Part shown: piece after piece, positions 8,222-24,548 of the stretch | How the letters are laid out: each line of letters opens with the position of its first letter | How positions within the stretch are numbered: the stretch's first letter is position 1 | Source of the DNA: an uncultured Fodinibius sp. | GTDB lineage: Bacteria > Bacteroidota > Rhodothermia > Balneolales > Balneolaceae | Length of the DNA stretch: 64,000 nt | NCBI GenBank assembly: GCA_913056235.1 | Contig: CAJXMW010000001.1 | Location: 1,364,001-1,428,000, forward strand | Reading direction: 5' to 3' | Notes under the pieces: generated by a model | Database searches by the model: none | Seen by the model: the letters and a program-made list of their open reading frames with translations, nothing else | What the model was told of the DNA's origin: nothing | Translations under genes and position numbers: made by a program

Positions 8222-9069
8222 ATGCTTTCACGCGTTTATTGCGCTTCCACCATTGGTGTTGATGCCCGTCTTATCGAGGTAGAAACAAATATGTCCTCGG
8301 GAATGCCCAAGTATTTTTTGGTGGGATTGCCGGACCGTGCCGTTAGCGAATCCAGCGATCGTATCGAGGCAGCACTTAAGAATTCCAACGCAGAATTTCC
8401 GAAAGGTCGGATTACTGTGAACCTGGCGCCGGCCGATCTACCCAAAGAGGGCAGTGCCTTTGATTTACCTATCGCGGTTACATTGCTAAACGTATCCGGT
8501 CAGATTAAAACCGAAAAGCTAGAGGATACCTTGATTTTGGGAGAGCTGGCCTTGGATGGTAAGCTGAGAGCCGTCAATGGCGTGTTGCCGATGGCCGTAC
8601 AGGCTCGCGATCAAGGGTTGGAAAATATGATTGTGCCAGCCGAAAATGGCCCTGAAGCCGCGGTGGTTGACGGGCTGGACGTATATTCGTTCGAGCATCT
8701 GACCGAAGTTATGGAGTGGCTTAAAAATGAGAACTCCCACGACCCTCTTGATGTAGATGTCGATGCGATGTTCAGCCGAAATAGAGAGGGGGAGATTCTT
8801 GATTTCAGTGATGTTCGCGGTCAGGAAGCGGTAAAACGCGCCCTTGAGGTCGCAGCAGCTGGAGGGCACAATGTAATTATGGTTGGGCCACCCGGTTCGG
8901 GCAAGACGATGATGGCACGCCGACTGCCTACAATTTTACCTCCACTTACACTGGATGAAGCGTTGGAAACGACAAAAATACATTCGGTAGCGGGACTTCT
9001 GCCGGGAGGTAAGGCCTTGGTCACCAATCGTCCGTTCCGTTCACCGCATCATACGGTTTCTGATGTTGC
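8222..9069 (+). pseudogene. comM: comM (YifB-like Mg-chelatase/AAA+ helicase), 5' part, split by prophage
   Basis: The N-terminal 283 codons of ComM/YifB, the AAA+ branch-migration helicase that helps integrate single-stranded DNA during natural transformation. It has the Lon-like N-terminal domain (from [15 protein letters not shown] to the [10 protein letters not shown] region) and the Walker A motif [16 protein letters not shown]. The frame then crosses the phage junction and ends at TGA 9077-9079 after three phage-encoded residues. The other part lies at 48955-49656. Joining the halves at GATGTTGC gives an uninterrupted reading frame of 1,542 bases (513 codons plus stop), the normal family length. 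The gene is broken in the lysogen and restored on precise excision. Confidence 0.93.
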
Positions 9070-10743
9070 GCTCTGTTGATAGGTGGTATCATCAATCTCA
9101 ACTCTTTTATGTGAATCACCTTTTTCTGGTTCGAAATCTCCTGAGAATGGATCTATGTCAGCTTCATCTTCAATAATTGGATACCTGAAATAGAAATCTA
9201 CAATGTAGTGTTCTTCTTCATCATCATAGTCAACCATTATTTTATCAATGTGTTGACGTAACAGGTCTCTTTTTCTCTCCTGTGAAATATCATCTGATTG
9301 CCATCTTTTAACTTCTTCAACAAATTCATCAATCCAGTTAATAGTTTCCTCTTCTTCATCAACTAACGAGAGATAAGATGTGAGTCTTTTTATTTTACCT
9401 GACTTCTCTTGAATATCACTTGTCAGTGATTTCTTTTTACTTTTGAACTGATCCTTTTCTAAAGCATTATCTAAGTACAAGTCTAATAATCTCTGCTTTT
9501 TATCTTCCAGTACTTTAAGCTCATTTCTAAGGTTTGAAATCTGAGATTCTAATTTGTCTTTATCAGAGACCGATTCATTTTCTTCAAGTACTTTCTGTTT
9601 GAACTTTTTATAGACTAGGTAAGAGTTGGTGAATATTTCAAGAAAAGTTTCCCAAACAAATTTATTCATCTTGTCAATGTTGGGAGAGGGTAACTGACAA
9701 GGTCCTTCGTTTTTATGTCTTACAGCTTTTCGTTTTCGAGCGCAATAATATGACCGTTGATCTGATTTAATTTTACCTAATAGTTTAGCATCATATTCTT
9801 CATGTCTTTTACAAAACAGTAATCCCTTCAGGAGATAGAAATGTTTAGTCCGGTTCCCTTTGTGATGGAATCGTTTATTGTCCTCCATTCTTTGTTGCAG
9901 TTTCTCCCACCGGCTTTCAGAAATGATAGCTGGGAAATCGTAAACTTTACCGCCGACTTTCCTAACTCCTTTTCGTAGTTCAGATTCGAGTATTCCTCTA
10001 ACTACATTATCTCTCCATACCATTTCTTCAGTATTGACTTTCTGAGTACCATCATCTCTATCATACTCAACGTACCCTTTATCAATAGACTTAGCTGAAT
10101 TGGTAGGTATGTTATTATCATTTAACCAGTTTACTATATCCCTGATCGACTTACCTTTGTGGATCATGTTGACCATCTGTTTGTATATCTCAGCTTGATC
10201 TTTATCAATGATCACTAGTCCGTCATCGTCTCTTTTATAACCGTACGGTACTTGAACACCTTGCCACTTTCCTTTTTCGTAGGATTCTTCCAGACCCGAC
10301 TTTATTCTCTTAGCCATATTATTTCTTTCAAACTCATATACCTTATTGAGTATACCTGATATGAGCTGGTCCATTGGATCAGATAAGTCTTTAGGCTCTC
10401 CCTTATCTCCGACCCAAAGTTTGACATCATTTTCGACAAACTCTCTCCTCAGCCACTCGCTCCAAAACGATTTACGAGAAAGACGAGAATATTCGTAAAC
10501 GAAAAGATGCTTACAATTTCCTTTTTGAATCTGCCGATGAAGTTTAGGGAAAGCTTCTCTTTCCATCGGTTCAGTTGTACCTGAGATAGCTCCTTCATTG
10601 AAAATCTTTACGTCTCTGAACCCATGTTGGTCAGCTAACTTCTCAGCTTTCCTTTTCTGGAATTGGAGGGAATTACCTTCATCGGATTGCTTTTCTGTAG
10701 AGACTCTTAGATAGGCATAGAGAGTTTCATTGGAATAATTCAT
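9049..10743 (-). CDS. int: large serine recombinase (phage integrase)
   Basis: A 564-residue site-specific recombinase for integration into comM. The N-terminal catalytic domain opens with [20 protein letters not shown], with nucleophile serine S15. A recombinase domain follows, then a zinc-ribbon-like part with cysteines around [17 protein letters not shown] and GPCQLP, and a long coiled coil ([19 protein letters not shown]). The last four codons before the stop come from host comM DNA: the core is inside the gene and the stop is at 9049-9051. In the excised circle the frame would run through attP and stop at 48870, replacing three residues by 27. Confidence 0.94.
9062..9069. other. attL core
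   Basis: GATGTTGC, shared exactly with attR at 48955-48962. Flanking bases differ on both sides, so the visible core is 8 bp. It lies inside the comM frame (Ser-Asp-Val-Ala codons) and also inside the 3' end of the integrase gene on the other strand. Confidence 0.85.
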
Positions 10744-10814
10744 AGTGATGATGTTTGTTTAAAATGGTTACTTGACGGTCCGTAATTTTATACCACATAT
10801 CAAAAACCAGTATT

Positions 10815-10843
10815 AAAAAAGCGAAGCCTTTCGACTCCGCTTT
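10815..10843 (-). terminator. rho-independent terminator (leftward)
   Basis: On the minus strand AAAGCGGAG and CTTCGCTTT pair (one mismatch) around an 8-base loop, followed by a run of six T. It sits just downstream of the gene at 10857-11429 and upstream of int. Confidence 0.7.
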
Positions 10844-10856
10844 AAATTGTAATTTA

Positions 10857-11429
10857 TTAATCTGAGAATGTATGAATGTAAGGTAATAACCGTTTTCTAA
10901 TTTTAGGTACAATCATACTATGGTGTTTTACCAATTCCGTGTTGTATCCTAAATAAGGAGCTCCTTCAATACACAAAGTGAACTGATTAGTTTTATTAGA
11001 ACAAATAATTATTCCAATTTGTAATGCGAGTTCAGGGTGTGAAAGTTCAGGTTCTGCTAAATTAGGATTATCTTCAGCGTTTTTTCTAATTCTAGTTTTC
11101 CAAGCAGTATCATCTGCTAGGTCTATTTTATAATTGGTTTTATATCTGGTCCCTTTATTTCCACTGTATACTTCTGATAAGCCTGTATGTTTATCAAAGT
11201 CTTGGTTTTCAATCTTAGTTACGTATTTGTTGACTAAAGACGTCTGTCTTCCATCAGGCTTATCAAAATGACCAATATAATCCTCATCTCTTTCTATACG
11301 ATGAAAGTAATTTAGATCGTCTTTGTGTATATCTAGTAAAATTTCAACTGACTCTATAGCTTCATTGAGATATTTTAAAGGTTGGTTTTTGAGTTGCTCT
11401 TGATAGTTTTTTGATTGAATATTATTCAT
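10857..11429 (-). CDS. phage hypothetical protein (190 aa)
   Basis: An unrecognised soluble protein. It is rich in charged and polar residues, with no clear membrane segment; a hydrophobic strand (LALQIGIIICS) lies near residue 145. It is read leftward with the 11503-11763 gene and ends at a good terminator, so it belongs to the left-end early or lysogenic transcript. A role in the lysogeny switch is possible only by position; no helix-turn-helix is apparent. Confidence 0.6.
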   Translation of the reverse strand: MNNIQSKNYQEQLKNQPLKYLNEAIESVEILLDIHKDDLNYFHRIERDEDYIGHFDKPDGRQTSLVNKYVTKIENQDFDKHTGLSEVYSGNKGTRYKTNYKIDLADDTAWKTRIRKNAEDNPNLAEPELSHPELALQIGIIICSNKTNQFTLCIEGAPYLGYNTELVKHHSMIVPKIRKRLLPYIHTFSD

Positions 11430-11473
11430 AATAGTGTTTGTTAATTTTGAATTATAGGTATTAGAAAGGAAGT

Positions 11474-11495
11474 GGTGAGGCCATAAGGCCCCACC
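11474..11495 (-). terminator. hairpin between two leftward small genes
   Basis: GGTGAGGCC and GGCCCCACC (8 of 9 pairs) around the loop ATAA. There is no strong T run on the minus strand, so it may attenuate transcription or protect mRNA rather than terminate fully. Confidence 0.45.
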
Positions 11496-11502
11496 GGATA
11501 TT

Positions 11503-11763
11503 TTAATTTTGAGAAGCTCTTTCAGCTTCCCACCGAGTACTGAAGTACCGACTACCTTTATATAATCGGTGCATATCCTTCTCCTGCCACAACGGACGAG
11601 AAGTTCCTCTGAGATCCCACATCTCGTGAAATTGTTTATTTCCCTTTTCCAGAAACTCTTCGATGGCTTCTGGGCGAGTTTCTTTTATTATTTCGTTCAA
11701 TGCAGGATCGAGATATTCAACTAATTTATAGACAGTTTCAGCCTGTGTTATTTTATTTTTCAT
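11503..11763 (-). CDS. phage hypothetical protein (86 aa)
   Basis: A small charged protein with no recognised domain. It opens with KNKITQAETVYKLVEYLDPALNEIIKE-like amphipathic helical sequence, and ends in a basic/aromatic segment (RLYKGSRYFSTRWEAERASQN). First gene of a leftward transcript that starts next to the repeated 9-bp motif array at 11780-11981, so it may be the gene controlled by that array. Confidence 0.55.
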   Translation of the reverse strand: MKNKITQAETVYKLVEYLDPALNEIIKETRPEAIEEFLEKGNKQFHEMWDLRGTSRPLWQEKDMHRLYKGSRYFSTRWEAERASQN

Positions 11764-11779
11764 AGTTGTTTTGAGCTTT

Positions 11780-11981
11780 ATTTAAAAGTTTAATTTAAAC
11801 GGGCATTATGGGTGCCCTGACGCTCTTTTAAATTCCCGACCAGGTATACCAATGTGTGATTGATATAGTTTTGGGGTGAAAAATTTAAAAGAACTACTTT
11901 TAAATATGAGCAGGGGATGGCAAAAGGCGTTTTGATTTAACCTTTTTTAACCCTTTTAGTTACCTAAAACGGCTTTTAAAT
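11780..11981. promoter_or_regulatory. array of five copies of a 9-bp motif (candidate operator region)
   Basis: ATTTAAAAG occurs at 11780-11788 and 11883-11891; its reverse complement CTTTTAAAT is at 11825-11833, 11897-11905 and 11973-11981. The middle two form a perfect 9+9 palindrome around AACTA. This lies in a 357-bp gene-free stretch (11764-12120) between leftward genes, where no gene could be supported. A short GGGCA/TGCCC hairpin lies near 11800-11816. The layout is what a phage repressor or control protein operator would look like, but A+T richness makes chance copies easier. Confidence 0.45.
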
Positions 11982-12120
11982 TGTATGAGGGCCTATTCTA
12001 AAAAATAGGTAGTAGGTGAGGTTTATTTTTTAACTGGCAAGCTGGTAGAAATTGTGCGTGCTTACTTAGTAAATGGCCCAATAGTTAAGGAGGGCAGGTA
12101 ATGATCGGGACTGATATTGG

Positions 12121-12507
12121 TTAAAGTTCGTTTAGCTTTTTATAAAATTCTTCCGCCGATAAATCGTTTATGGAAATATCTCTACCCCCAGTCGCAGGTG
12201 CGACGAAAGAAAATTTTTCTTCTCCCTCTGGACTTACAAACAATTTAAGTTCAAAGAGTTCCTCTTCTTTTTTGTTTTCGAGTTTAACTAAACCACGTGC
12301 TGTATATACAGCATCAACAGAATCACCCATATTTGGATTGGGATTTTTTGTAATTATCTCATGAACCTTTTCTAAATTGCCGATTTCTAAACCGTTCTTC
12401 CATTTCACTGTATTAAGGATTTCGTCGACTTTTTCTTTCATCACTAACAAAGCCTCTATCGGTGTTTTTCCTGATCGAGGTTTGTAATAGGTAGTTATCT
12501 TGATCAT
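12121..12507 (-). CDS. phage hypothetical protein (128 aa)
   Basis: A small soluble protein of unknown family. It has a basic N-terminus (KITTYYKPRSGKTPIEALLVMKEKVDEIL), an Asn-rich turn (TKNPNPNMGDSVD), and an acidic C-terminal helix (LSAEEFYKKLNEL). It runs leftward, divergent from the winged-helix gene at 12688. Position in the control region is compatible with a regulatory role, but no motif supports one. Confidence 0.55.
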   Translation of the reverse strand: MIKITTYYKPRSGKTPIEALLVMKEKVDEILNTVKWKNGLEIGNLEKVHEIITKNPNPNMGDSVDAVYTARGLVKLENKKEEELFELKLFVSPEGEEKFSFVAPATGGRDISINDLSAEEFYKKLNEL

Positions 12508-12625
12508 TCGAATCTATTTAGTTGTAATAATTGATAGGTAAAATGTATCAGATAACTAAAAAATATTGTGGTTAAAATCTATTCATTACTATTTATAAAT
12601 GAATTTAAACCACCTCAAACTACTA

Positions 12626-12687
12626 CCATCATCACACACAAAGAGATTTTATTTAGGCTCTTGCAACTTACATACGTGTGATGATGG
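12626..12687. promoter_or_regulatory. 12-bp perfect inverted repeat upstream of the winged-helix gene
   Basis: CCATCATCACAC (12626-12637) and GTGTGATGATGG (12676-12687) are exact reverse complements, 38 bases apart. The right arm abuts the ATG at 12688. It could be an operator for autoregulation or a 5'-UTR stem that hides the start codon. Confidence 0.5.
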
Positions 12688-13575
12688 ATGTGGGTGTTAG
12701 CAAGGGCCTTTTCTATTTTAACACACTATATTATCATTTTGACTCACACAACCTTTAACATACCAGTCCAACTCGGCCGGGAGCTTCTTCGGGATAAGAA
12801 GTATATCGAAGCTCGTCTTTGGTTAGCAGCTAAAGCGGTACACGGCGCGTATGTACCTAAAGAGGATTTGGATAGGAAAGCGATTGCTGACCTATGTGGA
12901 GTTACTGTTCAAGGGACATACAAAACTTTTAAAAAGTTACTCGATTTGAATTGGATTGGTGAGGATGAGAAATGTTATTATTTCCATTCTATTAAATCGT
13001 TGTGTGAATGTTACTACAAGGTTCAGAGTCGAAAGGTATTTGAACTTGATATAGAAAAAGACCTAGCTGATTTACAAACAGTATTGTTTGATGTCAGTGT
13101 TAAGGATGTTGTTATAAATCGAAAGCATGGGATGAAATTTGGGTCATCCGTATCGAGTGCTGATGAGGTTTACAAGATCCAAGATTACGAATCAACTACT
13201 GTTAGTGAATCTTATCTTTCCGATAAGCTAGGCATCTCTGAAAACATGGTCCATCGTCTTAAGCATAAAGCTCAGGACTTAGGACTTATGAAAATAATCT
13301 CCAATAAACGAAAAGTATCAGGTGGAGAAAAAGCTTATTTCCATGAAATGTGTCCTTACAAAATGTGGGACTACATTGATGATACTTACATCAACTTAAC
13401 TGATGACCTATACAGTTTTGCTAGATTCAAGAAAAGCAGCAGGTATAAAAGCCTGAATATTGGTGATCAACCTAATGTGGAAAATAAAGTTGATGATAGT
13501 TGGAAGAGAGAATGGGAAAGCTTTGCTAAAAAATTCGGAGAAGGAGAGGTGGCTGAAGAGTTCTTAACTCTTTAA
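12688..13575 (+). CDS. winged-helix DNA-binding protein, candidate replication initiator or regulator
   Basis: A 295-residue protein with two helix-turn-helix-like stretches: DRKAIADLCGVTVQGTYKTFKKLLDLNWI (about 62-90) and VSESYLSDKLGISENMVHRLKHKAQDLGL (about 170-200). Both resemble tandem winged helices of DnaD-like or initiator proteins. The first ~22 residues are hydrophobic and poorly conserved in style, so the true start may be a later non-ATG codon; no other ATG occurs before residue 143. It is the only rightward gene in the control region, next to a 12-bp inverted repeat. Because no helicase or primase is visible, it is the best candidate for the phage replication/regulator gene. Confidence 0.55.
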   Translation: MWVLARAFSILTHYIIILTHTTFNIPVQLGRELLRDKKYIEARLWLAAKAVHGAYVPKEDLDRKAIADLCGVTVQGTYKTFKKLLDLNWIGEDEKCYYFHSIKSLCECYYKVQSRKVFELDIEKDLADLQTVLFDVSVKDVVINRKHGMKFGSSVSSADEVYKIQDYESTTVSESYLSDKLGISENMVHRLKHKAQDLGLMKIISNKRKVSGGEKAYFHEMCPYKMWDYIDDTYINLTDDLYSFARFKKSSRYKSLNIGDQPNVENKVDDSWKREWESFAKKFGEGEVAEEFLTL

Positions 13576-13626
13576 AAATATAAAGGGAATATATTTGGGT
13601 TTTATGCTATGTGATGTAAACAGAAA

Positions 13627-14352
13627 CTAATTTAATACACTGGGATCTATAAGTGATTTCATATCCTCAATAAATTCTTCCTCATTCATTTTCTTAGTCG
13701 GTATTCTTAATTCATCTTGAAATCCAACAAATGGATGAGTATCAGGTATTAAGTGAGATTGTTTTGAAGTGATAAAAATCCAATAGAACCCAAAAGCCAC
13801 AAAATAAAGGCAATTTAAATCTTCAGCTTTTGATGGAAATCTTGTTCTGAAAGGAGGAGTGATTAACCTTTGGTTAAATTCTGTTCCTTCTAGTTTTAAT
13901 AAAGTGAAACAATATTTTTCAGGGGGACCTGGGTTTTCATTTTGAAGCATCTTCTTAATCTTAGGTCCATGTGGCCCAAGAGTGGTATCTTTATAAGTTG
14001 GGAGATTTGATTTGTGAGCCCTCCAAATAATAGATAAGCCAAACAACTTCAGTTTATCATAATCAAAATCTTTGATTGTTGTTCTTCTGTTAGAACTTTT
14101 CTTTTCCCAAATTTCCCTCAACAAATCAGCAGTGTAAGTTTCGTACTTATTAAATTGCTCCTCACAATCTCTACACAGTAGATACTCTCGGAATCCTTTT
14201 TGAATTGGTCTTGTTGGCAATCTAGGATTCGCTGAAACAGATATAAACGAATGTGATTCATCATATGTAGGCTTATATAAAAACTCTGGAAAAATATGTG
14301 AGTTGCAAAGTTTCTTCTCTTGGTCACATAGTTTACACTTCTTTTTGCTCAT
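13627..14352 (-). CDS. zinc-ribbon/HNH-like accessory protein
   Basis: A 241-residue protein. The N-terminus reads KKCKLCDQEKKLCNSHIFPEFLYKP and, 30 residues later, LLCRDCEEQFNKYE: two CxxC pairs bracketing a conserved SHIFPEF segment. This pattern is seen in a family of uncharacterised proteins that resemble HNH endonucleases (zinc-binding knuckle plus histidine). The rest is unremarkable. It runs against the late direction in the accessory block beside the restriction-modification pair, so a lysogenic-conversion or defence role is plausible but unproven. Confidence 0.55.
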   Translation of the reverse strand: MSKKKCKLCDQEKKLCNSHIFPEFLYKPTYDESHSFISVSANPRLPTRPIQKGFREYLLCRDCEEQFNKYETYTADLLREIWEKKSSNRRTTIKDFDYDKLKLFGLSIIWRAHKSNLPTYKDTTLGPHGPKIKKMLQNENPGPPEKYCFTLLKLEGTEFNQRLITPPFRTRFPSKAEDLNCLYFVAFGFYWIFITSKQSHLIPDTHPFVGFQDELRIPTKKMNEEEFIEDMKSLIDPSVLN

Positions 14353-14358
14353 AGTGAC

Positions 14359-14457
14359 TTAACTGGTTTTTCTTACTCTCTTATACCAAAATAGCAGAGT
14401 TGCTAATATTAAAGCTGATATTCCGATATAAATGTTGAACGTAATTATTGCAAACAT
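14359..14457 (-). CDS. 32-residue single-pass membrane protein
   Basis: A short frame encoding an N-terminal hydrophobic helix (FAIITFNIYIGISALILATL) followed by a basic tail WYKRVRKTS. A GATAGAG purine stretch precedes the ATG. The stop is six bases from the start of the 13627-14352 gene, consistent with an operon. The region from 14458 to 14669 holds no further gene. Small size makes this tentative. Confidence 0.4.
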   Translation of the reverse strand: MFAIITFNIYIGISALILATLLFWYKRVRKTS

Positions 14458-14669
14458 ACTACTCTATCATTAATGAAAATTATATGGTTGTTATTTAAAA
14501 TTATTTACCAAGAAATTCATACCTAATTTTTATTATTACTAATCTTTGGTGATACATATGTTGAACCTTAATAATGATCACACTACCTTCACTTCGCAAT
14601 GAATATCATATTTTTTTATAGATATTTTGAGAAAAGAATAACTGTTAAGCAATAAGTATTTTAGAGCTC

Positions 14670-15494
14670 ATGGATAGGAACCCATATTATTCAAATTCGA
14701 AAGGGGAATTTTATAAAGCAGATGTACTCGATTTTTTGAAAGATCTGGATGATAAATCTGTCGATTTAATAATTGTTGATCCCCCATATAATATTGAAAA
14801 GGCAAAGTGGGATTCTGTTGGAACTGTTGAGGAATATTCAGAGTGGTGCGAAAAATGGTTAAAAGAATTTGATCGGGTTTTAACTAAAAAGGGAACTGCT
14901 TATGTATTCGGTTATTCAGAAAACTTAGCTTATTTGAAAGTTAAAGGAGATCAAATATTCCCGAGATGTAAGTGGTTGGTGTGGCATTACACAAATAAAC
15001 CAAATCTTAGAAATGATTGGGGTAGGTCACATGAAAGTATTCTACACTTTAGAAAACACAAAGATTTTACATTTAATGTAGATGAAGTAAGAGTTCCTTA
15101 TAATGACCATACTTTAAATTATCCAGAGAGAGAAGATGGTAAGAGTAGTAATTTTGGCAGCAAGGAAAAATATAAATGGACCCCTCATCCTAAAGGGGCT
15201 CGACCACGAGATGTTCTAGAGATGGGAGTAATAAATAACGGAATGGAAGAAACTACTTCACATCCAACTCAAAAACCAGAAGGTTTAATTGAGAAACTTG
15301 TTCTAGCTTCCTCTAATGAAGATGATCTAGTTCTAGATCCTATGGCTGGCAGCGGGACAACTTTTGCTGTTTGTCAGAAGAACGATAGAAATTGGATTGG
15401 ATGTGAAAAAGAAGAAGAATATTGTGAGATTATAAAAGATAGAATAGAAGAAATAGAAGAAAAACAATCTCAAGCAACTTTAAACTTGGATTAG
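14670..15494 (+). CDS. beta-class DNA adenine/cytosine-N4 methyltransferase (type II modification)
   Basis: A 274-residue site-specific methyltransferase. Catalytic motif IV DPPYN is at residues 37-41, the conserved HPTQKP is at 199-204, and the AdoMet motif I DPMAGSGTT is at 224-232. The order (catalytic motif first) defines the beta class; DPPYN favours N6-adenine over N4-cytosine methylation. Convergent with the endonuclease gene and overlapping it by 4 bp. The pair would protect the lysogen and restrict unmodified incoming DNA. Confidence 0.88.
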   Translation: MDRNPYYSNSKGEFYKADVLDFLKDLDDKSVDLIIVDPPYNIEKAKWDSVGTVEEYSEWCEKWLKEFDRVLTKKGTAYVFGYSENLAYLKVKGDQIFPRCKWLVWHYTNKPNLRNDWGRSHESILHFRKHKDFTFNVDEVRVPYNDHTLNYPEREDGKSSNFGSKEKYKWTPHPKGARPRDVLEMGVINNGMEETTSHPTQKPEGLIEKLVLASSNEDDLVLDPMAGSGTTFAVCQKNDRNWIGCEKEEEYCEIIKDRIEEIEEKQSQATLNLD

Positions 15495-16390
15495 AGCATT
15501 TCCCAAAGATCATTTAAGATAAACTTATCAAATGTTAATAAACGTCCTTTGATATGCTTATCGTCATGGCCTCTTGGTAAATCAAAATAATAAATTCCGT
15601 CTAAAGGATTTGCATCATAGTTTGTAGTAAAAACTCTAGGAACAAATGTTTTTGCTACGCCTCTTTTACCCCTGCGTTGAATATCGTGATTGAACACAGC
15701 AATCATTTTAACTTTTTCGCCACAAGCACTTTCCAAATCTTTCTTATCACTAAAAACGTGTTTGAATCTATCTTTGGAAGAATATTTGATTGAACAGAAC
15801 ACTTCATCAGGGTCTACGTGTTGATCGCCGGATTTTACTGTATCGTGTGGACTTAAAACTAAATCAATTCGACTTTTACCATATGGTTGAATTTCTGCAG
15901 AGTGTGTGATTTGAGTTTTTTTAAGCAATGCTAAAATTAAGTCTCCAAATCTTTCACCTACATTTTTCTTAGCTCCTTGAGACTCTAATACAATATCTCC
16001 TGCAATTCCTAAAGATATGCTTAAGGTGTATAAAACAGAGTTGATTAAATTGGGGGAAATATCTGGAGCTTGAATATCGTTTGAGCTGGCAAATTCTTCA
16101 ATTTTAGCTATTAGTTTATTGAAATCTTCATCAAATTGATCTTTTTCAGATATATACAAGTTGGAATTGACCGGTCTTGTTTTGACAGGACGTGGTGAAA
16201 TATCCCACACAAAGAATTGATATTGGTCGTAAGTATTTGAAGAACTATTCAAAGTTATTATCTCCTCGTTGCTCAACAGGTCAAAAGTCTTCAATGTTAG
16301 TTCATAAAAGACTTCGATATCCGTTATTGGATGTCGTATTAGTTCTTCTAAATCTTCTTGAAGACTTTTGAACATACTGAGTTGTCCCAT
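15491..16390 (-). CDS. putative type II restriction endonuclease
   Basis: A 299-residue protein convergent with the methyltransferase and overlapping its 3' end. A likely PD-(D/E)xK core is AEIQPYGKSRIDLVLSP (D176), followed about 25 residues later by EVFCSIKYSSKDR. The lysine (K202) fits, but the position expected to be acidic is serine, as in some diverged enzymes. The identification rests mostly on pairing with the methyltransferase. The recognition site cannot be predicted. Confidence 0.65.
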   Translation of the reverse strand: MGQLSMFKSLQEDLEELIRHPITDIEVFYELTLKTFDLLSNEEIITLNSSSNTYDQYQFFVWDISPRPVKTRPVNSNLYISEKDQFDEDFNKLIAKIEEFASSNDIQAPDISPNLINSVLYTLSISLGIAGDIVLESQGAKKNVGERFGDLILALLKKTQITHSAEIQPYGKSRIDLVLSPHDTVKSGDQHVDPDEVFCSIKYSSKDRFKHVFSDKKDLESACGEKVKMIAVFNHDIQRRGKRGVAKTFVPRVFTTNYDANPLDGIYYFDLPRGHDDKHIKGRLLTFDKFILNDLWEML

Positions 16391-16613
16391 CTTTGATGAA
16401 ATTAAATTACACTTTGAAAAATTTATCAGACTAAAAACCGGTACATAGATAATTATTATGATTTTAACTTACAAGTGTTGTACAAAGTAGTCTTGAAATC
16501 GTAGATCTAATTTTCACTTGTAAATTTTAGTCAAAGAGGAGACTCAAGCTAACTTGAAGAACAGGAAGGCATTATATATAATACTTTAAATTCTAATCAA
16601 TAGAGGATCAGAT

Positions 16614-16775
16614 ATGGCACGTAGTAAATGGGAGTTTTATAAAGACAACAACGGAGAATACAGATGGCGTAAAAAAGCAGCTAATGGTAAAATAGTTGGA
16701 GCTTCATCAGAAGGATTTAGCTCTAGACAAGCAGCTGTGAATAACGCCAAGTTAAATGGCTATCAAGGATCGTAA
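16614..16775 (+). CDS. DUF1508 (YegP-like) small protein
   Basis: A 53-residue protein preceded by AGAGGA at a good distance. KWEFYKDNNGEYRWRKKAANG, then IVGASSEGFSSRQAAVNNA, is the single-repeat DUF1508 fold found in YegP-like proteins, whose role is unknown. It is divergent from the restriction enzyme gene across ~220 bp, which should hold promoters for both; the palindrome TTGTACAA lies there at 16478-16485. Confidence 0.7.
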   Translation: MARSKWEFYKDNNGEYRWRKKAANGKIVGASSEGFSSRQAAVNNAKLNGYQGS

Positions 16776-16787
16776 GAGTTATAAGAG

Positions 16788-16922
16788 TTAATCGTCTGAA
16801 GAGGAGTTCTTTCCACCTTGTTTTGAAGGCTTCGGAACCTTTAAGTCAGACAATTTATTCATACTTTTTTTGACATAATCCTTGTTCTTGTCAGTCAGTT
16901 TCTTTGATTTTTTATCACTCAT
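16788..16922 (-). CDS. 44-residue lysine-rich protein
   Basis: A short frame rich in K, S and D (start KKSKKLTDKNKDYVKKS, end GGKNSSSDD). It lies 12 bases downstream of the 16935-17333 membrane gene on the same strand. No recognised family; likely a disordered or nucleic-acid-binding peptide if expressed. Confidence 0.4.
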   Translation of the reverse strand: MSDKKSKKLTDKNKDYVKKSMNKLSDLKVPKPSKQGGKNSSSDD

Positions 16923-16934
16923 TTTTCTAGTGGT

Positions 16935-17333
16935 TTAAATTAAAAGTGTGACTCCTATACATGTTGTAAAACCGACACCGAAGAAAAAGGATGTGAGAGC
17001 AGTTATATCAAGCCACCCTAACAGGGAATCATGACCGACATTCTCTTCAGTAATCAATCTCTTCATGTAATCGGGATTTTTAGAAAATATTACTATTACG
17101 CTTAGAATATTAACGATGAAAGCAGTAAAAGCTAAAGCGTAAAATATAGTCTCTGAAGTTGTTAGAGCTTCTTTAAAGCTTAAAAGAGTGACTAGTAAAC
17201 CTATACCTCCAGATGATAGGGTAATAAGACTTTTATCTCTTTCAATACTATTAGTAATCCAGCCATTTATAACAGCCGATCTAAAAATCTCATCTTTTTC
17301 ATGAGAGTCGTTATTTTTTGAATCTTTACCCAT
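16935..17333 (-). CDS. membrane protein (132 aa)
   Basis: A predicted inner-membrane protein with three hydrophobic segments, near 35-55 (LITLSSGGIGLLVTLLSF), 65-85 (FYALAFTAFIVNILSVIVIF) and 112-132. A cytoplasmic N-terminus carries the sequence NGWITNSIERDKSLITLS, seen in many small uncharacterised membrane proteins. The ATG directly follows the palindrome TTGTACAA (17334-17341). It belongs to the accessory leftward cassette and may be a lysogenic conversion gene. Confidence 0.6.
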   Translation of the reverse strand: MGKDSKNNDSHEKDEIFRSAVINGWITNSIERDKSLITLSSGGIGLLVTLLSFKEALTTSETIFYALAFTAFIVNILSVIVIFSKNPDYMKRLITEENVGHDSLLGWLDITALTSFFFGVGFTTCIGVTLLI

Positions 17334-17422
17334 TTGTACAACTTAGGCTAATCCACCTGAACCAGCATTAGGATCTTAAGCTTTTGGAGATAAGTTGATA
17401 ATAAATTATTATGTAATACATA

Positions 17423-17441
17423 GTACACACATGTTGTGTAC
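17423..17441. promoter_or_regulatory. TGTAC-type palindrome
   Basis: GTACACA and TGTGTAC are exact inverted arms around CATGT. Related 8-mers TTGTACAA occur at 16478-16485 and 17334-17341, each upstream of an accessory gene. These could be sites for one regulator. Confidence 0.35.
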
Positions 17442-17474
17442 ATATGTAAAACAAGAAAATTAAGTTACTGAAGT

Positions 17475-17547
17475 GGAGCCTGGGGGAATCGAACCCCAAG
17501 AGACCGGGTGACAAACCCGACTCACTCGCTCCAAGAGTTCAGGCCCC
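17475..17547 (-). tRNA. tRNA-like gene, anticodon uncertain
   Basis: Seventy-three bases on the minus strand fold as a tRNA. The acceptor arms GGGGCCT/AGGCTCC pair at all seven positions (one G-U); the D arm CTC/GAG encloses a loop with GG; the T arm GGGG-TTCGATT-CCCC is canonical. The anticodon stem TCGGG/CCCGG leaves the loop TTTGTCA, giving anticodon TGT with a pyrimidine at position 37. A shifted reading gives GTC with a poor stem. It may be degenerate or modified in function. CCA is not encoded. Confidence 0.6.
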
Positions 17548-17565
17548 GTTCAGTAATTATTTCTG

Positions 17566-17596
17566 AGCCATCCAGTTACCGCTGGATGGCTTTTTT
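17566..17596 (+). terminator. strong rho-independent terminator
   Basis: AGCCATCCAG and CTGGATGGCT pair perfectly around a 6-base loop, followed by a T run. It reads rightward, although no clear rightward gene precedes it. It may insulate the late region from upstream transcription or end an unannotated rightward RNA. Confidence 0.75.
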
Positions 17597-17834
17597 ATTT
17601 CTTCCACATATCAACATAATAGATTGCAAACAGAATATCTTTACACGTTAAAAACCGACTTAAAATATAAAAGTGTATTTAAAAGAAGCTGACAACGATA
17701 CTGTTATATTATTACAGTTGTATTTTAGTTTCACCTTGTGCGAGTAACATCGCCTCTAATTTCTATTCATCAACATAAGGAATGGTGAAGTCTTACCGAA
17801 GGGAATTGTAATACACTTTTTACAATCGAGTGAT

Positions 17835-17873
17835 AAAATTGTAATTGCATTGTAAAAATTGTGAATGCATTCA
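17835..17873. repeat. 20-bp-period direct repeat pair
   Basis: AAAATTGTAATTGCATT (17835-17851) and AAAATTGTGAATGCATT (17855-17871) differ at two positions and are spaced exactly 20 bases apart, about two helical turns. Confidence 0.55.
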
Positions 17874-17989
17874 ACATTTGTCGAATAGATTCGACCGTTT
17901 AAATCATTTTGAGAGGGGATGCTGAAAATAGCCCACAATAACATTAAAGAATCCTAACATAAAAGTGGTTCTAAAAGTCCTGAAACAGT

Positions 17990-18036
17990 AAGTTTTCAAT
18001 TAAAAGTTTCATTGAAGTTTCAATTAAGTTTCATTC
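17990..18036. repeat. four AAGTTTCAWT iterons, three in perfect 11-bp register
   Basis: AAGTTTCATTG (18004), AAGTTTCAATT (18015) and AAGTTTCATTC (18026) follow head to tail every 11 bases. A fourth copy with one extra T starts at 17990. The spacing puts every unit on the same helix face, as for cooperative binding of an initiator or regulator. Confidence 0.65.
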
Positions 18037-18136
18037 GATTGTGCGAGCAATCAAATCAAACAGCTGTTTTTCTTTTTGGGCTGGTACTTATTAGTGGAAG
18101 ACAGAGAAGTCTTCAAGATATAAATACACTTCTTTG

Positions 18137-18230
18137 ACGGTGGCTTAGGTCGCGTGTTCGATTAGTGAACATCATAGATGTCCACGATATCTATTACACA
18201 TCTCCTTATTAATTAATCCTAAGCCACCGT
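18137..18230 (+). ncRNA. structured leader RNA candidate (three-way junction) before the late operon
   Basis: ACGGTGGCTTAGG (18137-18149) pairs perfectly with CCTAAGCCACCGT (18218-18230). Inside lie two smaller hairpins: GTTC/GAAC (about 18155-18169) and AGATGT/ACATCT (18176-18181 with 18198-18203). TCTTTTT follows the closing stem. The first late gene starts 27 bases later. It could be a terminator, an antitermination (put/nut-like) element or a regulatory leader. Confidence 0.5.
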
Positions 18231-18256
18231 TCTTTTTAATCAATCGGGAGAGACAA

Positions 18257-18448
18257 ATGAATTTTTATGAAAAGATTATAGCAGGGGTTTTACTTTCGTG
18301 GTGTTTCCAATTTGGAGCATCAATCTATTACGCCTTTCAAGGTAACTATCAGTGGTTAGTAGCAAATCTAATGAATGGTATCGGAGCAAAGTTAATCTAC
18401 GATGCTGCTAGAAAAGTGAATCAAACAGAAGAGAAGGATAGTGGATAA
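18257..18448 (+). CDS. small membrane protein, holin candidate
   Basis: A 63-residue protein with two hydrophobic segments (about 7-27 and 33-50) and a charged C-terminal tail (RKVNQTEEKDSG). It is the first gene of the late operon, with the leader GGGAGAGACAA before its ATG. It overlaps the next gene, with an amidase two genes downstream. That arrangement fits a class II holin, but small membrane proteins at 22320 and 26710 are alternatives. Confidence 0.5.
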   Translation: MNFYEKIIAGVLLSWCFQFGASIYYAFQGNYQWLVANLMNGIGAKLIYDAARKVNQTEEKDSG

Positions 18449-18740
18449 GAAATCAGTATTTGAGAAATTGAGTGAAGACGGAGTACCAGGTGCTAAAAGA
18501 ATGCATGAATTACTCGAAACAGCTTCTAGTCAAAGAGATTGGGTTCTTTTCCACAATTTCTTGATGACATGGATGAAATGGGAAAAGACTCTTAAAGAGG
18601 AAGACAGAGAGAAAATGTATGATCTAATGGATGATGAAATGGTTCAGATTTCAGCTGAGCTACAGAATCGTCCAATGGATTCTAGGAAGCTAGTAAAGAA
18701 GTGTCTCCGTCTTTATAACAAAATGGATTATCAACAATAG
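18441..18740 (+). CDS. late-operon hypothetical protein (99 aa)
   Basis: A helical, charged protein of unknown family, starting at GTG behind AGAGAAGG and overlapping the preceding gene by 8 bp. It ends CAA CAA TAG at 18738-18740. The amidase frame continues in the same phase directly after this stop, with only three codons between the TAG and the likely ATT start of the amidase. Confidence 0.55.
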   Translation: MDKKSVFEKLSEDGVPGAKRMHELLETASSQRDWVLFHNFLMTWMKWEKTLKEEDREKMYDLMDDEMVQISAELQNRPMDSRKLVKKCLRLYNKMDYQQ

Positions 18741-18749
18741 AGAAGTACG

Positions 18750-19238
18750 ATTGCATTTCCCAACGGTATAGTAGTACATAGCATGAGTGAGCATATCACT
18801 TATGAAGGCTCGTCTTGGAAAGCTATAGATTTTTTAGATCACATCGGTTTATCAATTCATATTTTCATCCACCCGGACGGTAAAGTAGAACCAATGGTTC
18901 CAACTACTGAAAAAGCTTTACATGCTGGTAAATCAAAACATAACGGACTAACAGGTTTAAATAACCATTTCTTAGGATTCGAATTGCTAGTCCAAGGAAA
19001 TAATAACTACTCAGAATTCTTAGATAAAATTGAGAAACCTGAGACTTATACAGATCAACAATTTAATTCAGCAGTCTTACTCACTCGAGTATGGATGGAA
19101 GCTTATAACATTAGTTCACGAAATGTGGTGAGACATTCTGATGTATCAGGAGACGATGAAAGAGGAAAAGGGAATGGTAAGAAAGATCCGGGTAAAGGAT
19201 TTAATTGGAACGAGTTTTTAAAACGTATTAAACAATAA
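18750..19238 (+). CDS. N-acetylmuramoyl-L-alanine amidase (amidase_2-type endolysin)
   Basis: A peptidoglycan amidase of the T7-lysozyme/PGRP fold used for lysis. From ATG 18783 it is 151 residues, but that start omits the first zinc histidine. The frame upstream reads AFPNGIVVHS, matching the usual strand 'IVIHHT', and is preceded by AGAGAAG. The likely start is therefore the rare codon ATT at 18750 (162 residues). Other features are HIFIHPDGKVEPMVP, the conserved HAGKSKHNG and FLGFELLVQ, the second zinc ligand in RHSDVSG, and KKDPGKGF, where D takes the third ligand place. TAG readthrough from the previous gene is a second possible route. Confidence 0.8.
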   Translation: MAFPNGIVVHSMSEHITYEGSSWKAIDFLDHIGLSIHIFIHPDGKVEPMVPTTEKALHAGKSKHNGLTGLNNHFLGFELLVQGNNNYSEFLDKIEKPETYTDQQFNSAVLLTRVWMEAYNISSRNVVRHSDVSGDDERGKGNGKKDPGKGFNWNEFLKRIKQ

Positions 19239-19255
19239 GATTCAGGAGAGAAGTA

Positions 19256-19795
19256 ATGTCAGAAAAGAAATACAGCTACGTAGATCTAGAAGAACTAATC
19301 ATATCAGCACAAAAATTTTTGAATCAAGGTGAATATGATAAGAAACTAGTCTTTTTAATCAGGTCGAATATTAAGGAGGCTAAAAATGCTTTAGAGCTTA
19401 TTCACGAAGATGTAAAGCAAGAAGATGAGTATTTACAAAAAGAACTTTCAGAAAACGAATATAAAAGGTTTTCAGAGTTTGAAGAAAAACGATCAAAACT
19501 ATTCACAACTAACAACTACAAAATCAGTGAAAGAGGTGATAATTGGGATCAGTTAGATCAAGAGAACAGGGATGAGATAACGGATGGTATAGCCGAGTTG
19601 CAATTGGAGTACGGTGAGTCTATTGAAGCAGCAAAAAGCGCCCTTCAGGAGGTAATGGAATACAATGAAAAGGTAAAGACTGAAAAAGTAGCCGAAATAG
19701 ATTTTAAAGAAATACCACTTGATCTCTTTCCTGATTCCCTAACTGGTTCTCAGCTACCAGATCCATTTATGGAATTTGTGGTAATGGGAGAATAG
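19256..19795 (+). CDS. late-operon helical protein (179 aa)
   Basis: A highly charged, mostly helical protein with coiled-coil-like stretches (DVKQEDEYLQKELSENEY; NRDEITDGIAELQLEYGES) and a hydrophobic C-terminus (LTGSQLPDPFMEFVVMGE). No recognised family. A clear GGAGAGAAGTA leader precedes the ATG. Lies between the endolysin and the sigma-factor genes. Confidence 0.6.
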   Translation: MSEKKYSYVDLEELIISAQKFLNQGEYDKKLVFLIRSNIKEAKNALELIHEDVKQEDEYLQKELSENEYKRFSEFEEKRSKLFTTNNYKISERGDNWDQLDQENRDEITDGIAELQLEYGESIEAAKSALQEVMEYNEKVKTEKVAEIDFKEIPLDLFPDSLTGSQLPDPFMEFVVMGE

Positions 19796-19797
19796 CT

Positions 19798-19956
19798 GTG
19801 GTATTAATCGGGGTCGAGTACGATAGCGGCTATGTAGCCAAAATTGACAAGCTAACACTCACTATAGACGGAAAAGAGTACGTGTCGAGTGGTGGTGAAT
19901 TAATAGGCGTGACAACAAAAGATACGTGGGAAGAAGAATTTGAGAGAGAAGTTTAG
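19798..19956 (+). CDS. 52-residue late protein
   Basis: A small frame beginning with GTG, with GGGAG eight bases upstream, and ending in TAG whose G is the first base of the sigma-factor start. The sequence (VLIGVEYDSGYVAKIDKLTL, then TIDGKEYVSSGGELIG) suggests a small beta-rich protein. Family unknown. The overlapped stop/start makes translational coupling to the sigma gene likely. Confidence 0.5.
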   Translation: MVLIGVEYDSGYVAKIDKLTLTIDGKEYVSSGGELIGVTTKDTWEEEFEREV

Positions 19957-20819
19957 TGTCAAAGAATTATTGGGATGAAGAAGTAAATGATGCAATTAAT
20001 GAATTCATTTCTAACAAAGACTTATCAGAGAGAGAATTAGCGCAATTATATACACATGAGATTCATCCAGCTTTTGAAACAGCTGCAGAGTCACTTGTAT
20101 ATAGAGATAATTTACATACTTCATCTAAGCTATCAGGGACAGAGCTTGTTAATAGAGGTATTGCAAAGGCTTATGAAGCTCTTAGAAAATCAAGAGAAGG
20201 TGTAGATGAAGACAAATATTTTGATCCAGAGAAAGGCAAATCATTTTCTTACTTCTCTGTTTCGATTAAGTGGCATTTAATTCAGTGTATCAACAAAGCT
20301 AATAGGAATAAGAATAATTTCTATTCAATGGATTCGTCTCCAAGCAACGTTGATTCAAAAGATTACTGGGATAGTAAGATTCATCAAGAAGCTATAAGTC
20401 AAACTAAGGATGAAATTGAGGTTACTATGTTCAGTGATCTACTCGAGACATTTCTTTCGTTTGTTGAGAGTAATGTAAACGATTTATGGATTAAGCCAGC
20501 ACGTCGAAGAACCGCTTTAGCTATTGTTGAATTCATTAGAGAGGGTAATCTCGGACAATTTCATTTGAGAAAAAGCCTAAGAAAGATCAGAAAAAAAGCA
20601 AATATCGAAGTTAATAACTACGCATTCACTTCAGTTCGAAAAGATATGCTAAAGATATATGAAAGGATTAAAAAGAAGTGGGAGAAAGACGGTAAAGTTG
20701 ATGAGGACACGATTATATGGATGAGACAAAAAGATTGGCCGGGATCTCCTTCATCTGAAGAACGAGAGAAAATAAAAGAACAGTATTACGAGCTACAGAA
20801 ACAAAGAGGGAATTTATAA
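19956..20819 (+). CDS. phage late sigma factor-like protein (T4 gp55 type)
   Basis: A 287-residue protein. LVNRGIAKAYEALRKS followed by YFDPEKGKSFSYFSVSIKWHLIQCINKANR matches the sigma region 2 pattern of T4 gp55-like late sigma factors, where FDPxKG.xFSYF is the most conserved stretch. The C-terminal part (170-285) is basic and helical and may hold further DNA contacts. Starts at GTG behind GAGAGAGAAG. The stop overlaps the bS21 start (TAATG). Expected to direct host core RNA polymerase to late promoters; five TATTTAT boxes in late gaps are candidate targets. Confidence 0.72.
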   Translation: MSKNYWDEEVNDAINEFISNKDLSERELAQLYTHEIHPAFETAAESLVYRDNLHTSSKLSGTELVNRGIAKAYEALRKSREGVDEDKYFDPEKGKSFSYFSVSIKWHLIQCINKANRNKNNFYSMDSSPSNVDSKDYWDSKIHQEAISQTKDEIEVTMFSDLLETFLSFVESNVNDLWIKPARRRTALAIVEFIREGNLGQFHLRKSLRKIRKKANIEVNNYAFTSVRKDMLKIYERIKKKWEKDGKVDEDTIIWMRQKDWPGSPSSEEREKIKEQYYELQKQRGNL

Positions 20820-21037
20820 TGGTAAGAGTATCAGTAGAAGTACGAGATGGTGATTGGGAAAAAGCACTGAGCATATTCCAATCTAAAGTAAAGGAGAGTG
20901 AAATTCTGTATAAGTACAAAGAGAATCAGAGATTCACTTCAAATACGAAGGAAAGACAAGATGCAGAACACGCTGCAAAAATGAGAGAGAAAGATAGACC
21001 AAAGTACTACCCGGGTCAGAAATTAGGAGAACAGTAA
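20819..21037 (+). CDS. rpsU-like: bS21-like ribosomal protein
   Basis: A 72-residue basic protein. VRVSVEVRDGDWEKALSIFQ, then SKVKESEILYKYKENQRF, follows the bS21 layout: a beta start 'VxVxDGdxxExAL', two helices with 'FkrkvkksgIl.eyr.rq.F'. The C-terminal half is longer and different (ERQDAEHAAKMREKDRPKYY). bS21 sits beside the anti-Shine-Dalgarno on the 30S subunit. Phage-encoded bS21 is known from other phages. The overlap TAATG with the sigma gene implies coupled production of the two. Confidence 0.7.
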   Translation: MVRVSVEVRDGDWEKALSIFQSKVKESEILYKYKENQRFTSNTKERQDAEHAAKMREKDRPKYYPGQKLGEQ

Positions 21038-21435
21038 TGCCTAAATCAATTAGTGACCTACGTAGAAAACGAAGACAGTCTAGCAAATCTCCTAAAACGC
21101 GAAGACAAATAGAGTCTGAGTGGTATCAATCGAAAGAGTGGAGAACTGTAAGAGAAGAATCCAGAAGAGAGCAGCGTCAGAAAGACGAAGATAGAATTAT
21201 ATCTGTATTTGAAGAACTTGAAAATGCTACTTCTAGTGATCTGTATGAGTTTCTGACTCATAAAAAACAGTATCCATTGTGTAATCATTGTTTAGAGGAA
21301 GGATTCATCACAGTGGGAAACGTTTGTGACCACATTATTCCGATAAAACGTGGTGGAGCTAAGTTAGACAAATCCAATTTGCAGTGGTTGTGTCACGATT
21401 GTCACGCTATAAAAAGTGGCAAAGAAGCTCATTAA
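21037..21435 (+). CDS. HNH endonuclease
   Basis: A 132-residue protein with a basic N-terminus and a C-terminal HNH domain: YPLCNHCLEEG, then VCDHIIPIKRGGAKLD, then LQWLCHDCHAIKSGKEAH. Both CxxC zinc pairs and the DH catalytic strand are present. In HK97-type phages HNH proteins near the terminase stimulate packaging cleavage; a homing role is less likely because of the short form. The ATG overlaps the bS21 stop (TAATG) and follows AGGAGAACAG. Confidence 0.85.
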   Translation: MPKSISDLRRKRRQSSKSPKTRRQIESEWYQSKEWRTVREESRREQRQKDEDRIISVFEELENATSSDLYEFLTHKKQYPLCNHCLEEGFITVGNVCDHIIPIKRGGAKLDKSNLQWLCHDCHAIKSGKEAH

Positions 21436-21528
21436 AATTATCCGACCGCTTTTTATTAGCCGCCTTCTATGTATTACTGAACACAGCTCAAAATGAGTGA
21501 CTAAAAGTTAAATAAAAGGAGTAATCAT

Positions 21529-22101
21529 GTGGAAGGTGATACACAACGAACGGAATTTGCATATATATGGACTAACAAGAAAACAAATAGATATTACGCA
21601 GGATCACACAAAGGAGATCCTGATGATGGATATATAGCCAGTAATAAAGATTTCTTAGCTAGGTATGAAAGGAATCCTCAGGACTGGAATAGAACAGTCG
21701 TTCTTTCAAAAGATTGCCGAAAATTAGAAGAAGCTTTTTTGAAAGCTGTTAACGCTTCTCAGGATTATAGGAGTTTTAATAGAGTAAACAGAGCTATAGC
21801 ACCAATGGACGATATTAGGGGTGAGGATCATTTTTTCTACGGAAAGAAAAGGCCTAAGCATTCAAAATGGATGAAAGAGAATCATCACAAGTATTGGAAA
21901 GGAAGACGTAGGAAAGATATCGAAGGGAATAATTTCGCTGGTAAGAGAGTAAGACATATCAAATCTGGTGAAGAATTTAAATCAATAACAGAAGCAGCTA
22001 AGCAGTTTGGATATTCAAGAGGTACTGTGTCGTTACACGTAAATGGTCATATACAGAAAAAGAAATTCGAATTCGTAAATGAGGAGCAAGGTGATAAATA
22101 A
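21529..22101 (+). CDS. GIY-YIG homing endonuclease-like protein
   Basis: A 190-residue protein. FAYIWTNKKTNRYYAGSHKG is a GIY-YIG-like catalytic start (YI..., then YYAGSHKG), and AFLKAVNASQDYRSFNR follows. The middle, GEDHFFYGKKRPKHSKWMKENH, is a NUMOD3-type basic motif. The C-terminus, KSITEAAKQFGYSRGTVSLHVNG, is a NUMOD1 helix-turn-helix. Starts at GTG behind AAAGGAG; an overlapping out-of-frame ATG two bases upstream is not used. A likely free-standing selfish nuclease inserted between late genes. Confidence 0.75.
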   Translation: MEGDTQRTEFAYIWTNKKTNRYYAGSHKGDPDDGYIASNKDFLARYERNPQDWNRTVVLSKDCRKLEEAFLKAVNASQDYRSFNRVNRAIAPMDDIRGEDHFFYGKKRPKHSKWMKENHHKYWKGRRRKDIEGNNFAGKRVRHIKSGEEFKSITEAAKQFGYSRGTVSLHVNGHIQKKKFEFVNEEQGDK

Positions 22102-22318
22102 TGAAGAGCTAAAGAGAAAAAAAGAACGTTGGTTATCGCTTCTCAATGATATACTGACTAGCAAATATAGTGAGAGTGAATGCAAAGAAATCCTGGAAGA
22201 AATGCGATCTCAATTGACAAACTACTCAGTAGAACAATACAGAGAGGTCGATAATAGAATAGACTTATCAGTAAAAGAGAAATTAAAACTACAATTCGAA
22301 GACTTGGAGAGAGAATAA
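22091..22318 (+). CDS. late-operon hypothetical protein (75 aa)
   Basis: A charged helical protein of unknown family. The frame is also open from ATG 22079, but AGGAG at 22082-22086 sits inside that longer version and at the right distance for GTG 22091. Overlaps the end of the GIY-YIG gene by 11 bp. Confidence 0.5.
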   Translation: MINNEELKRKKERWLSLLNDILTSKYSESECKEILEEMRSQLTNYSVEQYREVDNRIDLSVKEKLKLQFEDLERE

Positions 22319-22319
22319 A

Positions 22320-22610
22320 GTGAGTAGTGAAGAAAGCAACAAAGATATTAATTACAGTGATATAGTAGAGAACATACAGGGATTTGCATTGTGGCTTGTT
22401 AACGTATCAACAATGCTATGCTGTAGTCTGTTATTGCTACTGTTTACTGTTGGTGTAGGAGTGGAAGTAATAAAGGATATTGAGCACTTAGAATTGATGA
22501 ACTTCTCAGTATTCTATTTGTATTTGCTTCTAGGTTCAACTGTTAGCTTAGGACTTAATTGGCTGCTGACTTATATACAGAAAACGTTAATGCGTGGGGC
22601 CGAGAGCTAA
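22320..22610 (+). CDS. two-helix membrane protein
   Basis: A 96-residue protein with hydrophobic segments at about 24-46 (LWLVNVSTMLCCSLLLLLFTVG) and 60-84 (FSVFYLYLLLGSTVSLGLNWLL). GTG start after GGAGAGAGAATAAA. Another holin candidate; no family recognised. Confidence 0.55.
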   Translation: MSSEESNKDINYSDIVENIQGFALWLVNVSTMLCCSLLLLLFTVGVGVEVIKDIEHLELMNFSVFYLYLLLGSTVSLGLNWLLTYIQKTLMRGAES

Positions 22611-22660
22611 GCATTAATTCAAATTGATAAACTAAATAGGAATAAAGGTACAAGAGGGTA

Positions 22661-22999
22661 ATGGGATTGTTTAATTGGATGTTTGGATGCAAGGAAAGAG
22701 ATCATCATATCAAGACAGTAGAGTTCGGTATAAAAGAAATTGACAAGCCAACAAAAGACAATGCTGTACTGATAAGATATAAAGACGATGAGCACATAGA
22801 AGAACCTATCAGTGAAGGAGATGTACTCCAAGTAGACGATAAAGATGCACTAAGAATAGAAGACGTAGATGCAGGTAAAAGGATTACCATCAACAAGAGA
22901 GTACATAAAATAGTGTTTAAAGTGTTGAATGATGAAGAACCTATTAAAAATCTCATGACAGGAGATACACTCGAGTTGAATTGCACTGCTACCTACTGA
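22661..22999 (+). CDS. late-operon hypothetical protein (112 aa)
   Basis: A soluble protein with an N-terminal Trp/Cys/His cluster (LFNWMFGCKERDHH) and many acidic residues, probably beta-rich. Preceded by AGAGGG. No family recognised. About 200 bases without a gene follow, containing an AGAGT/ACTCT-type hairpin near 23004-23021 and TATAAAT near 23133. Confidence 0.5.
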   Translation: MGLFNWMFGCKERDHHIKTVEFGIKEIDKPTKDNAVLIRYKDDEHIEEPISEGDVLQVDDKDALRIEDVDAGKRITINKRVHKIVFKVLNDEEPIKNLMTGDTLELNCTATY

Positions 23000-23202
23000 C
23001 GAGAGTTGTCAACACTCTGATGAGTAGTGATTGTGTGCTGTGCTTTCAAATAGATTGACGGGGTCGTTTCTGTGAAAAATCTTGAACATAGGGCATGAAA
23101 AATCATAAAAACGGCGAATACCTATAAATCTTTCGACACCATAAGTATTTTTTCTCCCCAAAAATAGAGACGGCCAAGTTCACAAAAATCAAGAGAAGTA
23201 AG

Positions 23203-23550: not shown

Positions 23551-23728
23551 AGAAGACAATCTATTTCCGGAGGATATTGAAATAGAAAATGACATATCAG
23601 AATCAAGTTTTTTTGAAGAAATCACACAACATCATTTACAGGTAATAAAAGAAAATGAAGTAGTTGGTCACGGGATTACAAGTTTGTCAGACAAAGTATT
23701 AGAGATCACGTTTAAAATTCATGTTTAA
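23543..23728 (+). CDS. late-operon hypothetical protein (61 aa)
   Basis: An acidic small protein. ATG 23543 follows GGAGAGAGAAGA directly, so an earlier in-frame TTG at 23525, which would lie before this leader, is rejected. Overlaps both neighbours by 8 bp. Family unknown. Confidence 0.5.
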   Translation: MNKEDNLFPEDIEIENDISESSFFEEITQHHLQVIKENEVVGHGITSLSDKVLEITFKIHV

Positions 23729-24107: not shown

Positions 24108-24139
24108 AAAAATAACCCGGCCAAGTTCTTTTTCTGAGA

Positions 24140-24147
24140 TATTTATT
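24140..24147 (+). promoter_or_regulatory. candidate late promoter box
   Basis: TATTTATT in the gap before terS, 33 bases upstream of its ATG. One of five near-identical boxes in late intergenic gaps. Confidence 0.4.
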
Positions 24148-24542: not shown

Positions 24543-24548
24543 TGACTA

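Follow-up and report, generated by a model that had tools for sequence, protein, structure and literature searches.

Genomic context of the prophage

The window (the whole stretch of 64,000 nucleotides that was analysed) contains a prophage of 39,893 bp (~39.9 kb) which splits the host gene comM, and deleting the insert, as recomputed from the sequence, gave an uninterrupted 513-aa ComM. The features of the two prophage ends are as follows:

8222..9069, plus strand: 5' part of host comM, codons 1 to ~282, core included; the joined frame is the 513-aa ComM with Pfam ChlI and Mg_chelatase domains
9062..48954: prophage with tailed phage genes for terminase, portal, capsid protease, major head and tape measure
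9062-9069: attL core GATGTTGC, 8 bp, with a GA dinucleotide as the likely crossover
9049..10743, minus strand: int, large serine integrase; in the integrated state 564 aa, i.e., 561 phage codons plus ETV from comM antisense
9076..9088: int-side attP half-site arm TTGATAGGTGGTA (symmetry search), over the minus-strand int codons TTYQQ
48792..48832, minus strand: intrinsic terminator with an 18-pair stem and a T-rich tail, 38 nt beyond the tail stop TGA
48870..48954, minus strand: tail segment of 27 codons and a TGA, contiguous with int in the circular phage alone
48929..48941: other attP half-site arm TACCCCCTAACAA, read as the tail residues LLGG when the phage is circular
48955-48962: attR core GATGTTGC, 8 bp
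48955..49656, plus strand: 3' part of host comM in the joined frame

The head and tail gene set of the phage is normal, and the genes examined are full-length. Apart from these, the prophage carries a DNA methyltransferase gene adjoining a match to a type II restriction enzyme (PADLOC REase_II, E 3.5e-20; window 14670-16390), which together form a phage-borne restriction-modification pair, five tRNA genes (Thr, Ala, Thr, Gly and Trp; window 17473-17547, 24549-24783 and 35003-35077), and a phage-borne DNA-repair family protein (phrog_10276, probably RadC-like; window 47895-48380, minus strand). The IMG/VR contig L002 proved to be the window DNA itself and no independent copy.

Taken alone, the 8-bp repeat is weak evidence for an att site; the open frame of the comM 5' part extends past it in the window, to 9079. 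In the joined sequence, the core is surrounded by imperfect inverted arms, TACCACCTATCAA towards int and TTGTTAGGGGGTA opposite, with 13 of 22 positions complementary in the symmetry search (P=0.019 vs. shuffles). The comM frame was uninterrupted (516-539 codons) in 10 of the 11 other members of the genus examined, and in the remaining one (G227) it was cut at a codon other than that of the window. Since comM is rebuilt exactly, is intact in 10 of 11 congeners, and inverted arms lie around the core, the predicted attP junction is secure as a prediction, and GA on the comM strand is likely the crossover dinucleotide. Short att sites with inverted arms about a non-palindromic dinucleotide, as seen here, are what would be expected of a large serine integrase.

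Two C-termini of the integrase

In the integrated state, the int frame ends with ...SATS-ETV*, whereby ETV and the stop are comM read backwards. When the right phage end is joined to the core, the same 561 codons are followed by 27 tail residues, VTHQLLGGSSFEFKESFKPDKKQIRPF, and a TGA at 48870-48872, which makes 588 aa in the circular form. A preliminary description of this locus had placed the 8-bp core inside the int frame, with the last codons and the stop taken from host comM, and had counted 27 extra codons and about 588 versus 564 residues; the recomputed coordinates agree, and the figures were reproduced. Its statement that the integrase C-terminus differs between the circular and the integrated phage describes a real arrangement, which recurs in other elements (see below). 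The term truncation, used there for the effect of integration, found no support in this phage. Pfam detected the N-terminal resolvase domain (PF00239, E 1.8e-25) and the Recombinase domain (PF07508, E 4.4e-15), and residues 9-537 match the conserved integrase profile phrog_95, the match ending 24 residues before the switch point and lying entirely in the shared part, so that no recognisable integrase domain is missing from either form. Because phrog_95 ends at 537 and the two domains lie far upstream, integration of the window phage swaps a non-conserved terminus and removes no known functional part. In large serine recombinases a zinc ribbon and a coiled coil belong to the long C-terminal region; a zinc-ribbon match was not found by Pfam in this integrase, only the Cys/His spacing.

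Both attP half-sites of the window phage are coding: one overlaps int codons present in both forms, the other the codons at the start of the tail. In the prophage state, no phage gene lies upstream of the terminator (48832-48792) on its strand, and only after circularisation can this terminator act on int. The presence of an 18-pair terminator past the tail stop suggests a genuine gene end, the long frame then being the transcription unit of the circle.

Properties of the 27-residue tail

The suggestion of the preliminary description that the tail controls stability or directionality of recombination found no support in the window phage. A Pfam search of the 27 residues gave no domain and no double HTH, an ssrA-like AA ending is absent from both forms (the circular one ends with KKQIRPF, the integrated one with SETV), and the tail length is not above chance, as an equally long or longer open frame was kept in 20% of the dinucleotide-shuffled versions of the right end (P about 0.2). 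Moreover, the tail of the closest relative is unrelated. A reading of either end as an ssrA degradation tag was rejected on these sequences, neither having an AA-type tag. Past the tail stop no relic HTH was found, and the terminator follows within 38 nt. The AlphaFold model of the integrase had a mean pLDDT of 53, which is too poor for judging the tail.

The search for close relatives of the window integrase in IMG/VR and genome contigs yielded only the same DNA, and the tail comparison is therefore based on the only relative found, a distant one (G224), from a genome of another family of the same phylum. Its integrase is 29% identical to that of the window phage and is its sister in the tree (support 99/96). 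The 11.7-kb element of G224 is inserted into the same comM codon but oriented the other way round, with attP, again inside the int frame, having clearer arms than in the window (15/21). The G224 int does not end before the core but crosses it, with 570 aa in the integrated and 603 aa in the joined state, so that a long form, which the preliminary description had proposed to look for in related phages, is predicted there too, albeit with an unrelated tail. As the layout is common to the window/G224 branch and the tail sequence is not, a dispensable tail is favoured, and the 27 residues of the window phage are probably dispensable. What counts against this is the terminator-bounded end, which may point to the long form as an evolved product with a useful tail.

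Occurrence of attP within integrase genes

About 30 serine integrases were recovered when 394 genomes of the phylum were searched with a profile. Wherever the int 3' end faces comM, the frame runs into comM (7 of 7: the window, G224, G392, G047, G172, G120 and G126), while in an eighth comM insertion (G099) it is the int 5' end that faces the gene. Ten further int frames of this survey overlap a tRNA gene read antisense; a tRNA pattern search for the far ends of the tRNA-Asn elements found none. Judging from these frames, an attP overlapping the int 3' end is common and no peculiarity of the window phage. The record of phage R4, tried as a control, has no annotated attP.

The comM gene itself is struck by serine-recombinase elements at at least two codons (~281 and ~353) and is also interrupted at a third one (~221, Walker A). 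Two of these sites are occupied on a single contig (L073, 2700-3950), and a Rhodothermaeota contig (L108) has three consecutive comM 3' fragments resembling a tandem array of inserted elements.

Elements with a helix-turn-helix tail

Four elements with both ends available are located in comM codon ~353 (NPCPCG), and in each of them the int frame continues through attP:

G392 (L024 + L070): int open frame of 505 aa integrated, 648 aa joined; a second HTH end (L085) is present and the pairing of ends is uncertain, the frame being the same with either
G047 (L026 + L069): int open frame of 526 aa integrated, 673 aa joined; the two ends are on different contigs
G172 (L035 + L068): int open frame of 508 aa integrated, 647 aa joined
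G126 (L032 + L057), in the other orientation: int of 501 aa integrated, 642 aa joined

This lineage forms a tree branch separate from the window phage. Its tail, lost on integration, has 147-152 residues (~150 aa) with two HTH_3 domains in each of the three tails tested with Pfam (E 2.7e-17 to 7e-23), and the G126 tail was detected by a profile built from the other three. The dN/dS values, where computable, were 0.13-0.47 for the linker and 0.20-0.30 for the rest, the compared copies including L085, which is not in comM. Integration thus severs a conserved DNA-binding module in the HTH lineage, for which a function depending on the state of the element is likely, and the idea of control over stability or directionality would fit this lineage better than the window phage. 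A role of the HTH tail as an excision directionality factor is unlikely, since the fusion is present when integration is wanted; autoregulation or binding to attP seems more plausible.

In G254 (L079, 391-1959), the HTH end of an inserted element is in frame with comM codons 1-352, forming a 523-aa open frame. In two of three elements (L074 and L076), comM antisense provides an in-frame ATG directly before the HTH domain stranded after integration. One genome (G039; L077, L086 and L090-L096) has about ten copies of a PALPFC-type HTH gene.

The loss of the HTH tail can also be followed in Paenibacillus phage Harrison (L072), which was sequenced as an isolated phage and has a single integrase of 695 aa that carries two HTH segments at its C-terminus. 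Two Paenibacillus larvae proviruses from IMG/VR (L103 and L104) are identical to Harrison over the first 1,627 bases of int, and past this base their DNA reads as comM (CGYLSAEHETQGCTC), giving a 560-aa integrase. The Harrison attP is symmetric with a TG centre and lies inside the int frame; in the tree, the phage is placed on a long branch. At the level of DNA, the comparison of virion and matching proviruses is an independent confirmation of tail loss on integration. In publications on these Paenibacillus phages, the gene is called just recombinase or integrase, and attP is unmentioned.

Interpretation of the integrase-attP overlap

The arrangement in the window is probably that of a temperate tailed phage with a compact int-attP module, in which both integrase forms would be active and the tail itself would have hardly any function or none. 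The compaction of the serine-integrase module would consist in an attP lying within the 3' end of the phage's int. While the phage is a free circle, the int frame would proceed across the core and the far attP half-site, gain 27 codons and be closed by the terminator; on integration at GA, within the comM codon for D (in SDVALVGGG), the tail codons and the terminator would be exchanged for three comM antisense codons (ETV*). With both forms being presumed active recombinases, a lysogen would still make an integrase usable for excision. The first third of the tail would be set by the attP half-site, and the overlap of int and attP would be tolerated since the C-terminus is unneeded.

The tail might instead alter the activity, stability or directionality of the integrase, with one form made by the circle for integration and another by the lysogen. 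The terminator right after the tail is meaningful only in the circle, what the HTH lineage loses is a genuine domain subject to purifying selection (dN/dS about 0.13-0.47), and a fusion to a recombination directionality factor (RDF) alters the behaviour of phiC31 integrase (PMC6511857), all of which would agree with such a switch. However, the window tail has no domain, no AA-type tag, a length expected by chance and no similarity to the G224 tail, and for this phage we consider the switch unlikely. Even less credence can be given to a decayed prophage or a crossover located elsewhere, in which case the long frame would never exist: the window circle is a predicted joining, L002 being the same DNA, but comM is exactly rebuilt, the arms are inverted at the core and the examined phage genes are full-length. 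The att site inside the integrase gene is also what is seen in the archaeal SSV type, where integration destroys the enzyme and locks the element in. This is the most improbable explanation here, as the enzymes of the archaeal elements are tyrosine recombinases that become separated from their catalytic domain (PMC8371274), whereas the window integrase keeps all conserved domains in one frame.

Beyond the compact module with a dispensable tail preferred for the window phage, a wider proposal can be put forward only tentatively and with some doubt, namely a widespread class of bacterial serine integrases in which attP within int acts as a physical sensor of state. The integrase of the circle would be fused to a double HTH (or a short tail), integration would cut this domain off and strand it at the far end, and regulation or direction of the integrase would thus depend on integration. 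The HTH form was recognised in the DNA of five elements from two phyla; its regulatory role is presumptive. A serine-integrase phage can have not one 'integrase' but two, a different protein in the free and in the integrated state. Annotation based on prophages may consequently carry a wrong integrase C-terminus, and tool builders who clone from prophages may get a shortened form. The HTH lineage offers a ready and testable case of a DNA-binding domain lost through integration, with neither a repressor nor a degradation tag involved.

Comparison with known systems

The literature search gave no description of a bacterial serine-integrase gene that contains attP, nor of an integrase-HTH tail lost on integration, and the integrase-HTH switch appears undescribed in the searchable literature; subscription papers were mostly outside its reach, and priority is unsure. 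The window integrase resembles the large serine integrases of the TP901-1, A118, phiC31 and Bxb1 type in its Resolvase and Recombinase domains, inverted-arm attP and two-base crossover, and A118 also targets a competence-related gene, comK, as the window phage does with comM (PMC3556126). It differs from them in that attP is in the 3' coding end of int and the protein changes upon integration.

In the integration-dependent immunity of mycobacteriophages, attP is in the repressor gene and a degradation tag is involved (PMC9934374). The analogy with this switch, drawn in the preliminary description, is apt for the layout, as in both cases attP is within a phage frame and the 3' end of the gene is removed by integration (PMC9934374), but it does not extend further: the gene in the window encodes an integrase and not a repressor, and the ssrA-like AA tag is absent. 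The suicidal integrases of SSV1, pTN3 and pT26-2, described as archaea-only, also have the att site in the integrase gene (PMC8371274); those are tyrosine recombinases split into inactive parts, while the window enzyme is a serine recombinase losing only a terminal tail.

The synthetic phiC31 integrase-RDF fusion demonstrated that a protein attached to its C-terminus can determine in which direction a serine integrase works (PMC6511857); the extension there is engineered, whereas that of the window phage is natural and present in circular DNA only. The integrase-(HTH)2 elements (Harrison/Paisley, and the Bacteroidota elements in comM codon ~353) share with the window phage the comM target, an attP inside int and the swapped C-terminus, and differ from it in the comM codon, the tree branch and the tail, which has ~150 aa with two HTH_3 domains in comparison with 27 residues without HTH.
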